From: Pseudogemmobacter humi
GTDB taxonomy: Bacteria > Pseudomonadota > Alphaproteobacteria > Rhodobacterales > Rhodobacteraceae
Assembly: GCF_900609055.1 (NCBI RefSeq)
Contig: NZ_UXAW01000057.1
Coordinates: 1 to 37,192 of the forward strand
Direction of reading: 5' to 3'
Length of the DNA stretch: 37,192 nucleotides
The notes below the pieces were generated by a model that saw nothing but the letters and a program-made list of their open reading frames with translations, was not told where the DNA came from and did no database searches. Position 1 is the first letter of the stretch. Each line of letters starts with the position of its first letter. The translations under genes and the position numbers were made by a program. Shown here piece after piece: positions 11,574 to 22,768 of this stretch.

Positions 11574-11687
11574 TCAGATCCTGGTGACGAAAGTTCGCGC
11601 GTGATAAAGCGCGAGCAACGGCAGGCCTGTGCATACGATGGTGGCGACGACGACTCCGGTCGTGCCCCAGGCGAAAAAGGCGATCAT
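11574..11687 (-). CDS. 37-residue single-span membrane protein
   Basis: The protein reads MIAFFAWGTTGVVVATIV, then CTGLPLLALYHARTFVTRI. Residues 2-28 form one hydrophobic span, followed by a short basic tail expected in the cytoplasm. The ATG overlaps the stop of the winged-helix gene (ATGA), and a strong GGAGGA ribosome site sits seven bases upstream, which together support a real gene. It is the last gene of the block. I recognise no family. It may be a small partner of the DMT transporter two genes upstream or of the membrane Fe-S protein; both are guesses. Confidence 0.65.
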   Translation of the reverse strand: MIAFFAWGTTGVVVATIVCTGLPLLALYHARTFVTRI

Positions 11688-11986
11688 TGCAGTTCCTCCG
11701 ACAGGCCGGTCTGGCGCATTCTGGTGCGTCCGAATGCATTCAGCCGGTAACAATTCAAAAGTTTTTCGCTTCCCGGCGCCGTATTCGGGTCGATCTGCGA
11801 TTTCACATGGCTGATGAGACCGCCCGCATAGAGATCGGTCAGCGTCATGCGAATGGTGCCGCTCCAGTAGGGGCCGCCGTCCAGGCGGTATTCCCGCAGG
11901 ATCACGTCCCTGATTTCGTGATCCCACAGGGAATCCGCGCGTTCCAGAAGTTGCAGGATGCGGCCCTTGATATGTACCTTTGCCAT
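11684..11986 (-). CDS. Small winged-helix DNA-binding-like protein
   Basis: A 100-residue protein. LWDHEIRDVILREYRLDG and WSGTIRMTLTDLYAGGLI look like the helix-turn-helix and recognition helix of a PadR/MarR-like winged helix, followed by a wing ending LNCYRLNAFGRTRM. I recognise no named family. The start is three bases after the transporter stop, with a GGAGG site inside the transporter's last codons, so it is co-expressed with it. It could be a local regulator of the methylamine operon. Some proteins of this size bind small ligands rather than DNA. Confidence 0.6.
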   Translation of the reverse strand: MAKVHIKGRILQLLERADSLWDHEIRDVILREYRLDGGPYWSGTIRMTLTDLYAGGLISHVKSQIDPNTAPGSEKLLNCYRLNAFGRTRMRQTGLSEELQ

Positions 11987-11989
11987 GGT

Positions 11990-19764: not shown

Positions 19765-21963
19765 TCAGAGCCGCCATTCCAGCCTGTATTCGCCGCCCGG
19801 CTGGTAGGCCGTGCCCCAGGAGATGACCTCGCGCTTGTAGGGCAGGGGGTGCTGGGGATCGGCGTCCTCGATCTCGCGGGCGATACGGTGGCCGTCGAAG
19901 GTCGCATCGGCGATCAGCTTGGGCGCCCAGGCGTCACCGATGACATAGACGGCCTTGATGCCGTTCGCTTCCCACTCGCTCTGACGCGCCTTGATCTCGC
20001 GGAACAAAGTGTCGTCGGAATGGCGCCCGGTGATCAGGACCAGCGTGTCGAATTCGAGCCACTGATGGCTCTTGTTCTCGTCGCGCGGCAGCTTGCCGGG
20101 GCCGCGATATTCGCGCCGCGAGCCCTCGGCCCAGACATCGTAATATTCGATGCGCCCGTCCTCGACCCGCGAGGCCCAGGCGTCGCCGATGATATTGACG
20201 TTCAGCTCGACCATGCGGCGGCGCATGTTCGGGTATTCCAGCGAGAAGTGCATGTAGCGGCCGAATTCGACGCCGCTGATCACCGTCACCTCATGACCCT
20301 GGGTCGCGAGCCGCTCGGCCAGAGAGGGGGCCATGAAATAGGTGTCCGCGTTCAGGATCACCACCCGCTTGCCGATCGGCTTCTCGCCGCGGAAGATCTG
20401 TTCCGGCGTCACCTGATCGGGGCGCGAGGCATCCACGCCCGGGATCGGATCGTGGCTGAGGCAGTTGGTGCCATCGGTGTTCCAGGACGAGCCGGTGGCG
20501 ATGACGACCTTCTCGGCGCCGTAGTTCAGCACGTCGTCGGCGGTCAGCCGCTTCCGGCCGAGCGCGAGCTGCGAGCCCTTGACCCGCTTCATCAGCTTAT
20601 CGAGCTGCACCTCGCGGTAATCGCGGTGATAGCCCCATTCGCCAAGGCCCGGCAGCGTGGCGACATCGTTGAGATGGCCGCCGACCTTCTCGGCGCTGTC
20701 CACCAGATGGGTGACATAGCCGCGCTCCAGCAGCACCCGCGCCGCCTCCGAGCCGGACGGGCCGGCGCCGACCACCAGGACCGTGTCGTCGGAGCCGGCG
20801 CGCTCGAACTTCTCGGGGTGCCAGCTGCGGCGGTATTCCTCGCCTGCGGTGGCGTTCTGGGTGCAGATCATCGGCGGCCCGCCGATCTCCCACCGCGAGA
20901 TGCAGACGTTGCAGCCGATGCAGGTGCGGATGTCGTCCAGCCGGCCCTCCTGAATCTTCTGCGGCAGGAACGGATCGGCGATCGAGGGCCGCGCGCAGCT
21001 GATGATGTCCAGCTCGCCGTTGCGGATCACCTCGGCCATCTTCTCGGGATCGGTGAAGCGCCCGATGCCGAGGACCGGCTTCTTCGAGTGCATCTTGACG
21101 AAACGCTGCCAGGGGATCGCGTGGCCCTGGCGGTGGAAGCGCGACGGCGCCGCATCCTCGCCCCACTGGGCGATATCGCCGACGTTGATGTCCCAGACAT
21201 CGACCAGGTCGTCGGCCAGTTCGATCAGGCGCACGCCGTCCACCTCGACCTCAAGCCCGCCGGGGCCGTAGAGGGTGTCGATGGCGCAGCGCGAGGCGAC
21301 GGCGCAATCGTCGCCGACCGCCCGTTTGACCTTTTCGAGCGTCTCGATCCAGAACCGCGCCCGGTTCTCGACCGAGCCGCCATAGCCGTCGGTGCGCTTG
21401 TTGAAATAGGGGCTCAGCCATTGCATCGGGCCATAGGCATGGCCGCCATAGACGTTCACGATGTCGAACCCGGCGTCGCGCGACCTGAGCGCGGCATCGA
21501 CGTAGAACTGCTGCACCTGGCGGATGTCGTCCTCGTCCATCTCCCTGCAATAGGTCAGCGTCTCGAATTCCGAGGCATACTGGCTGGGGCCGCGCGGCGT
21601 CTGGCGCGATTCCATGTTCGGGGCATGGCCGCCGCCATACCAGAGCTCGACGCCCGCGAGGGCGCCGTATTTATGCACCTCGTCGCACATGGCGCGCAGG
21701 TTGCGCACATCGCCCGCGTCCCAGATCCGGGCCGAAACCCGCATCGTGTCGTCGGATTCCGGGTGGATCGAGCAATATTCGGTGTTGATCGCCCCCCAAC
21801 CGCCTTCCGCCTTCACCCCGCGATGCGCCATCTGGAAGCCGGGCCGGTCGGTGCCGGCGCCGATGCAGTGCGGGCTCTGGTGGAAACGGTTCTTCATGGT
21901 CTTCGGACCGAGCTGGATCGGCTCGAACAGGATGTCGTATTTGGCCGGTCTTGCGTTGGTCAT
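19765..21963 (-). CDS. tmd: Trimethylamine dehydrogenase (6-S-cysteinyl-FMN, 4Fe-4S)
   Basis: A 732-residue protein that aligns from memory without visible gaps to Methylophilus W3A1 TMADH (729 residues), offset three. Conserved: Cys33 in PHCIGAG (covalent FMN), Tyr63, Trp267 and Trp358 (substrate bowl), Tyr172, His175 and Asp270 (active site), the cluster CIGCNVC plus Cys367, and the ADP-domain motif [15 protein letters not shown]. Tyr63 and Ser77 match TMADH; I recall Gln and Thr there in dimethylamine dehydrogenase. Reaction: trimethylamine to dimethylamine and formaldehyde, electrons to ETF. It follows the TPR gene by 46 bases, with a purine-rich ribosome site. The dimethylglycine enzyme DgcA is a less likely alternative. 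Confidence 0.92.
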
Positions 21964-22009
21964 GGTCTTCTTCTCCCTCTGGATTCCGCCGCACAGGCGG
22001 GACGAAGCG

Positions 22010-22768
22010 TCAGTCTTGGTTGTCGTCAGGACCCGGCGTATCGGCGGCGATAAGCAGCGCGGCGCCGAGGAATTTGCGCAGGTCGTCGAAAGTGGCCGGT
22101 TTCTCGCCCGGCCAGCGGTCGCCCGTCCGTCCGGGCGGCGGCTGGCTGCGGGAGGCGGCGTTCAGCCGCGAGGCGACATCGCGGGCAAGCCGCATCGCAT
22201 CGCTGCGCAGGCTGCGCTCGTAGGCGTCCCAGTGCAGCGCCTCGCTTTGCAGATGAAAGAGCGAGCTGCGCCCGCGCCGGGCGATGGTCATAGTGTCGAT
22301 CCAGGCGGGAACCGTTCCCCACCGCCGCAGCGCCGCGGCGTAGCGGCGGCAGGCGAGACGCTCGCGCCCGGCCAGACGGGCGGCGAGGCCGAGATTGGCG
22401 AGGCTGGCCGCCTGTCGCGGATCGCGCCGGTCAAAGCGCATCCGGGCGACGAGCCAGGCGAGGCGCCAGTTCCACGCGGCGAGGGCGGGCCTGCCGTCGC
22501 GCAGCGCGCCGAGCGCGCGCTCCTGAAGACGCTCCCAGTTCAGATCGCAATCCCGCCAGCAGACGGTATGGGCCGGGCGGGGCTGGCCTCCCGCAAGGGA
22601 TGCCGCCGAACGGGTTTCGTGAAAAATACCTGAAAAACAGTTGCTTGCGCCGGGTTCTTCTCCGCCGAAAGCATTGCCACCACGTGGATCGGCTGGCAAA
22701 TCGCGCAAACCTTCCCCGTTACCGCCCTGCGCTGTCGCAGGCGGCCGTTCCGTCGCGTGGGTTAGCAT
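22010..22768 (-). CDS. TPR-like alpha-helical protein, first gene of the TMADH block
   Basis: A 252-residue protein. From about residue 75 it is helical with repeat-like units, e.g. [20 protein letters not shown] and [20 protein letters not shown], which resembles tetratricopeptide folds. The first 70 residues are low-complexity ([12 protein letters not shown]) and may be disordered. The start at 22768 is supported by GGGGAGGAG directly upstream. I recognise no named family and see no signal peptide. It is separated from TMADH by 46 bases on the same strand, so an assembly, flavinylation or chaperone role for TMADH is possible but unproven. Confidence 0.6.

Follow-up and report, generated by a model that had tools for sequence, protein, structure and literature searches.

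A trimethylamine dehydrogenase operon of Pseudogemmobacter humi with a linked candidate for electron exit to quinone

Introduction

In the Rhodobacteraceae, the use of trimethylamine (TMA) is usually looked for through the genes tmm and tdm. A 37,192-nucleotide contig of Pseudogemmobacter humi (NZ_UXAW01000057.1, analysed at full length and called the window below; it is C110 among the 143 contigs of a 4.47-Mb draft genome) carries a block of genes around a candidate trimethylamine dehydrogenase (TMADH), together with an electron-transfer flavoprotein (ETF) pair and a membrane Fe-S protein. Does this block provide a further route for TMA, and where would the electrons go? An earlier note on this DNA had proposed an operon that is self-sufficient from amine to respiratory chain. 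We conclude, with a probability of about 0.7, that the block would encode the first step of an oxygen-free TMA breakdown with its own electron exit, complementing the Tmm/Tdm/Dmm route. It would thus be a second, dehydrogenase route that surveys for tmm and tdm miss.

The four genes on which this reading turns are the following.

19765..21963, minus strand: TMADH, 732 aa, by identity to PDB 1djn, active site and tree
17480..19681, minus strand: membrane Fe-S protein of the EtfD/FadF/DgcB kind, by its match to 9ojn_A, ligand mapping and Pfam; probable ETF:quinone oxidoreductase
15280..16065, minus strand: EtfB, W3A1-type, 149 of 260 residues (57.3%) identical to chain 1o94_C
14324..15283, minus strand: EtfA, W3A1-type, 155 of 311 residues (49.8%) identical to chain 1o94_D

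Results

The dehydrogenase groups with the W3A1 TMADH

Aligned with the W3A1 enzyme (1djn), the window protein is identical at 532 of 728 residues (73.1%), compared with 39-40% for three other solved relatives, two of which are histamine dehydrogenases (40.3% and 39.4%). Likewise, phmmer gave 1319.7 bits to W3A1 TMADH versus 528.6 to the best histamine dehydrogenase. Cys33, Tyr63, Tyr172, His175, Trp267, Asp270 and Trp358 are all present, as are the four cluster cysteines, at the W3A1 numbers plus 3; the window enzyme therefore keeps the W3A1 aromatic bowl (Tyr60, Trp264 and Trp355), Tyr169, His172 and Asp267, and Cys30, the flavin link. At position 344 the window enzyme has Thr where W3A1 has Val.

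Phylogeny gave the same picture. In a 41-row tree, built after removal of duplicate proteins (for example that of locus L010) and of open reading frames (ORFs) whose alignment covered under 500 residues, the protein lies inside a 16-row clade with W3A1 TMADH (support 100/99) and both histamine dehydrogenases lie outside; a 21-row tree agrees. Long-branch warnings were raised for some distant rows of the larger tree and for none in the TMADH clade.

The substrate could nevertheless be another amine, such as histamine, dimethylamine, dimethylglycine or a larger tertiary amine, given that the wider protein family acts on many substrates and that, of the 47 genomes of the bacterial family with a match at E <= 1e-150, 43 have nothing closer than relatives below ~50% identity. 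Against this stand the separate clades and the bowl residues, which are those of W3A1; in the histamine enzymes residue 60 is Gln, and nothing aligns with Trp355. We consider another substrate very unlikely. By identity, active site and tree, the gene is a TMADH and not a histamine dehydrogenase or a DgcA-like protein, as the earlier note had proposed with phylogeny and active-site alignment as its checks, and TMADH activity of the product can be predicted with high confidence.

The Fe-S protein keeps the ligands of an ETF-to-quinone wire

W3A1 TMADH and its ETF sit together in PDB entries 1o94 and 1o95, and the chain identities listed above bear out a W3A1-type ETF pair in the window. In order to place the Fe-S protein, we compared it with the solved chain 9ojn_A, which it matched with 252 bits as a single sequence; a profile of ten sequences raised the score to 356 bits. 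Entry 9ojn was taken as the M. smegmatis EtfD structure of PMC13083937, since its length and all 25 ligand letters agree with that paper. All ligands of the D2 (6/6), D3 (4/4) and D4 (4/4) clusters are present, together with both quinone Phe residues, both haem His residues (His101 and His282, corresponding to EtfD His78 and His241) and two of the three haem Arg residues. By alignment, none of the four D1 cysteines is matched, so that the protein is not filed as EtfD proper; FadF and DgcB likewise lack them, according to PMC13083937. Nor is it DgcB proper, because DUF3483, the domain described for V. natriegens DgcB, gave no match at E <= 0.001.

Pfam recognises two 4Fe-4S motifs and one CCG domain, the canonical ETF:quinone oxidoreductase (ETF-QO) domains PF05187 and PF21162 are not among the Pfam matches, and five to six hydrophobic segments are seen. 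Among 12 other sequences compared, the D2 cysteine C712 is Asp in six and one quinone Phe is Leu in two. Conservation favours a gene start at ~19642 over 19681. A predicted structure (5 aligned sequences) had a mean predicted local distance difference test score of 41.1 and was not used for fold comparison. On its ligands and domains, the protein is of the EtfD/FadF/DgcB kind, in agreement with the EMO/EtfD/DgcB-type label given to it earlier; it is likely to act as an ETF:quinone oxidoreductase, and electron exit through it is very plausible.

Further afield, EtfB, EtfA and Fe-S genes are adjacent on a plasmid of the haloarchaeon Halalkalicoccus jeotgali (L092 4180-8100), whose Fe-S protein is 42% identical to that of the window.

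The block is laid out as an operon and inherited as a cassette

The remaining genes of the block and its upstream edge are listed here; counts refer to the 11 other loci fetched for comparison unless stated otherwise.

22010..22768, minus strand: hypothetical conserved protein upstream of TMADH, start uncertain; 6/11 loci, 45-64% identity; no family match in Pfam or NCBIfam
16062..17483, minus strand: leucine-rich repeat variant (LRV) protein, 473 aa; PF01816, 91 bits; 9/11 TMADH or near-TMADH loci
13156..14256, minus strand: GcvT-like folate-binding protein, 366 aa; PF01571, 216 bits; 8/11 loci
11990..13045, minus strand: EamA/DMT-family transporter, 351 aa; PF00892; 6/11 loci within the stretches compared
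11684..11986, minus strand: conserved 100-aa protein; 6/11 loci; no match in Pfam or NCBIfam
11574..11687, minus strand: conserved 37-aa hydrophobic protein; 5 of 13 loci searched, 56-89% identity
23094..23909, plus strand: GntR/FCD regulator, probable regulator of the block; PF00392 and PF07729; 6/11 loci
23885..25198, minus strand: Peripla_BP_6 substrate-binding-like protein, upstream edge of the block; PF13458; 6/11 loci

Ten minus-strand genes span 22768 to 11574, with the regulator divergent to them and the periplasmic-binding-type gene further upstream. Four-base overlaps join Fe-S and LRV, LRV and etfB, etfB and etfA, and the 100-aa and 37-aa genes, the remaining gaps being 3-110 bases; the first two overlaps had been described before and the other two are added here. 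The earlier count of ten same-strand genes stands, with a different tenth member: the 117-codon ORF at 11574-11927 overlaps the 100-aa gene in another frame and was dropped in favour of the 37-codon ORF at 11574-11687, which recurs in five of 13 further loci searched, including two from betaproteobacteria. Pfam agrees with the earlier identities of the Fe-S, LRV and GcvT-like proteins and of the transporter, which is of the EamA family. The GcvT-like protein is 40% identical to an aminomethyltransferase-family protein of Paracoccus aminovorans in the DmmD position. The 37-aa hydrophobic protein, which sits after the EamA transporter and the 100-aa protein, is kept from Paracoccus-like bacteria to Azoarcus and Cupriavidus.

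Four of 295 family genomes have a TMADH of at least ~60% identity, and the same four (G000, G064, G275 and G288) are the ones, out of 290, with a match to the Fe-S protein at E <= 1e-100; three candidates per genome were scored, and the two genome draws were not identical. On plasmids, the eight best of 103 records with a TMADH-family match (49-95% identity) are also the eight best for the Fe-S protein. The Fe-S gene adjoins TMADH by coordinates in all eight, and the LRV gene is found in seven, Shinella being without it. Of the window and the 11 fetched loci, 10 belong to the TMADH clade, and G064 and Shinella lie just outside it. Across these 12, Fe-S, EtfB and EtfA genes occur in 12/12, LRV in 10/12, GcvT-like in 9/12 and EamA in 7/12 within the stretches compared; the gene-neighbourhood survey that had been suggested thus finds Fe-S, EtfB and EtfA beside TMADH in all 11 other loci. 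The Shinella relative lacks Tyr169 and His172 and may have another substrate. Moreover, the divergence of the linked genes tracks that of TMADH (Mantel r 0.913, 0.932 and 0.888; 11 loci), with 0 of 2000 permutations as high. The block is inherited as one cassette, so that the linkage and divergence results are not independent of one another.

Beyond the family, 1 of 398 phylum genomes has a TMADH match at E <= 1e-200, the source genome itself (two candidates scored per genome), and only 1 of 13 genus genomes has the gene. The marine setting in which the earlier note had placed the operon is not borne out, the nearest records being P. aminovorans, strain QY30 and metagenome-assembled Rhodobacteraceae. 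Window positions 11557-19994 and 20014-25216 are collinear with P. aminovorans plasmid IV at 85-88% DNA identity, and on either side of the block the DNA is ~77% identical to the polA and MoxR regions of other Paracoccus replicons. A tRNA-Phe gene lies at 10885-10960, ~600 bases from the block end, and transposase-like ORFs, recognised by eye, flank the block in loci L007 and L008. By G+C content, the block is not set off from its surroundings.

A paralogue as a candidate for the second methyl group

The source genome holds a paralogue of TMADH (65% identity) on the 9.3-kb contig C100 (L011 575-2782). It forms a clade with five counterparts (support 100/100), and all six carry Gln60 and Thr74 in W3A1 numbering. 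We take these residues to be marks of dimethylamine dehydrogenase (DMADH), although the histamine enzymes share Gln60; the six proteins are candidate DMADHs. The DMADH-like group may be either the outgroup of all TMADHs or the sister of the Rhodobacteraceae TMADHs: the support was 82/84 in the 21-row tree (approximately unbiased test, p 0.191 for the alternative) and 96/91 in the 41-row tree.

In loci L007, L008, L009, L010 and L034, the DMADH-like gene is found in the same locus as TMADH, and in P. aminovorans it lies ~103 kb from TMADH on the same plasmid; on five betaproteobacterial plasmids, each with one TMADH-family place, no counterpart was seen. On the short contig C100 a TAXI-type TRAP transporter precedes the paralogue and a cupin-like protein follows it, with no ETF genes nearby. 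The source genome is probably able to convert TMA as far as methylamine by the dehydrogenase route. Self-sufficiency from amine to respiratory chain therefore holds at most for TMA to dimethylamine (DMA); beyond that the block would rely on the paralogue elsewhere.

Weighing the electron exit and the role of oxygen

Several findings on the exit and on respiration weigh against the reading of the block as an oxygen-free step with its own exit. Apart from the D1 cysteines and the one haem Arg that the Fe-S protein lacks, contig C84 of the same genome encodes a canonical ETF-QO (both Pfam domains, PF05187 and PF21162), and contig C94 carries another EtfB-EtfA-FeS set with a GMC oxidoreductase gene after it (L093 5819-11202). 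Both could in principle serve, so the earlier claim that the Fe-S protein replaces the usual ETF-QO is not supported, and a need for the block's own exit is not shown. The electrons might accordingly leave through the canonical ETF-QO, the linked Fe-S protein being a backup or serving another purpose. We regard this as improbable in view of the strict linkage of the Fe-S gene with TMADH and ETF, the kept ligands of the electron wire, and the haloarchaeal plasmid on which EtfB, EtfA and Fe-S genes adjoin. The C94 set may serve another substrate through an EtfD-kind exit. A TGA within the C94 Fe-S match, considered as a lesion, is most likely the gene's own stop codon (ORF 7529-9508 of L093).

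The absence of Tmm and Tdm genes had been noted as a contrast of routes. This is correct for the window, but both are found elsewhere in the same genome: Tmm on contig C122 (836.4 bits, cut-off 675) and Tdm on contig C104 (1230.7 bits, cut-off 1100), beside FolD-like genes and a malate-CoA ligase; a Dmm-type PF11927 protein is on contig C103. NirK is encoded on contig C126 together with NorB-, NorC- and NorQ-like genes, and in each of the four family genomes with the block one nitrite reductase, either NirK or of the cytochrome d1 type, was matched strongly, a bare count and not an enrichment. As for nitrate, the best NarG match in the source genome was 20.6 bits and was counted as absent; Nap and NosZ were not searched. 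Two further candidates were rejected, namely NirS, for which only weak cytochrome d1 matches (40.3 and 27.5 bits) were found, and NapA, whose apparent matches are formate dehydrogenases (TIGR01553, 1158.8 bits, versus 109.5 for NapA, cut-off 904). In L077 4692-7772 (contig C137), a formate dehydrogenase-N alpha subunit is split into two ORFs by an in-frame stop, as a selenocysteine codon would give; we note it as a candidate selenoprotein only.

The evidence from regulation was mixed. Upstream of TMADH no FNR-type box was found, and the window has four two-mismatch matches versus 5.67 expected. NarL-like regulator genes stand beside TMADH in all three betaproteobacterial loci fetched and beside the DMADH-like gene in P. 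aminovorans, and the one that was scanned scored above the NarL cut-off. All four kinases scanned scored under the NarQ/NarX cut-offs, and no nitrate-sensor domain was recognised in them; neither the window nor L007, L008, L009, L034, L036, L048 or L011 yielded the NarL-like pair.

L051 24328-26636, L050 25201-27691, L049 22065-22712 and L055 17951-20436: NarQ/NarX-like kinases and NarL-like regulators beside TMADH or DMADH

It is possible, then, that the block works mainly with oxygen and saves reductant, the dehydrogenases feeding quinone while Tmm and Dmm consume electrons, with no anaerobic arm. The lack of an FNR-type box and of NarG, the GntR/FCD type of the adjacent regulator and the coexistence with Tmm and Tdm would all fit. 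The title of Kim et al. 2001, as cited in PMC4543880, points to nitrate-linked TMA and DMA dehydrogenases. Activities of this kind in Paracoccus sp. T231, which degrades TMA with nitrate via TMA and DMA dehydrogenases according to PMC12388299, argue against a mainly oxic role, as do the NirK and NorB/NorQ-like genes of the source genome. Overall, the evidence from regulation and denitrification on an oxygen-independent role is mixed, and we hold an oxygen-limited or nitrogen-oxide-linked role only tentatively, at slightly less than even odds.

Discussion

For the oxygen-free first step with its own exit, which we prefer, the following course can be proposed. TMADH, with covalent flavin mononucleotide and one 4Fe-4S cluster, would demethylate TMA to DMA and formaldehyde, as the 73% identity and complete active site suggest. 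EtfAB, of the W3A1 type, would take up single electrons, the W3A1 pair having been solved as a complex, and would hand them to the EtfD-kind membrane protein. There, the aligned ligands point to a path that starts at a D2-type non-cubane cluster, crosses two 4Fe-4S clusters and reaches quinone by way of haem b. The GcvT-like protein would probably load the released one-carbon unit onto tetrahydrofolate. The DMADH-like paralogue, which has no ETF genes near it on C100, probably shares the exit of the block when the second methyl group is removed. Oxygen is required in neither dehydrogenase step, and the block would therefore complement the oxygen-dependent Tmm/Tdm/Dmm route when oxygen is short.

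In Paracoccus sp. T231 a nitrate-linked TMA/DMA dehydrogenase pathway was reported biochemically; genes such as those of the block may underlie it and are concrete candidates. A broader proposal, which we think doubtful, is that the block belongs to an oxygen-independent, nitrogen-oxide-linked methylamine module spreading between alpha- and betaproteobacteria, with one dedicated EtfD-kind exit for TMADH and DMADH and with the LRV protein, whose gene keeps its place between the Fe-S and etfB genes in 10 of 12 loci, as an unrecognised part of the electron path (in docking or cluster assembly). If this were true, organisms that have the module as well as Tmm/Tdm/Dmm would change route according to the oxygen supply. 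In any case, the operon is a compact, genetically tractable setting for an EtfD-kind protein with a well-studied donor pair, TMADH and ETF.

Comparison with known systems

W3A1 offers the closest solved proteins (1djn and 1o94), with the same active-site residues, a dehydrogenase 73.1% identical and an ETF 50-57% identical; the window differs at residue 344 (Thr for Val), the comparison being one of proteins. The closest gene order is that of P. aminovorans JCM7685 plasmid IV, which has the same succession of substrate-binding protein, divergent FCD regulator, hypothetical protein, TMADH, Fe-S protein, LRV, EtfB, EtfA, GcvT, DMT transporter and small protein, and a TMADH 94.5% identical to that of the window. 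There the block is on a 740-kb replicon, whereas in the window it lies between genes matching other Paracoccus replicons. No description of this cluster was found in the literature searched; a 2017 paper on P. aminovorans (Environ Microbiol, cited in PMC9699525) may describe it.

The Tmm/Tdm/Dmm route, known from plasmids of P. aminophilus and P. aminovorans and also present in the source genome, achieves the same net conversion of TMA to methylamine, but by monooxygenases and not dehydrogenases. Mycobacterial EtfD (9ojn) shares the D2, D3, D4, haem and quinone residues with the window protein; it differs in having the D1 cysteines and in serving fatty acid oxidation, where the window protein would serve amine oxidation. 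Finally, according to PMC12093977 and PMC13083937, the dgcAB-fixAB operons of Pseudomonas aeruginosa and Vibrio natriegens, for dimethylglycine, join a dehydrogenase of the NADH:flavin-oxidoreductase family to an EtfD homologue and an ETF pair. Compared by description only, they resemble the window in this set of genes; they differ in their substrate and in that V. natriegens DgcB is described with DUF3483, for which the window protein has no match at E <= 0.001. By analogy, dgcAB-fixAB is a published precedent for the design of the operon described here.

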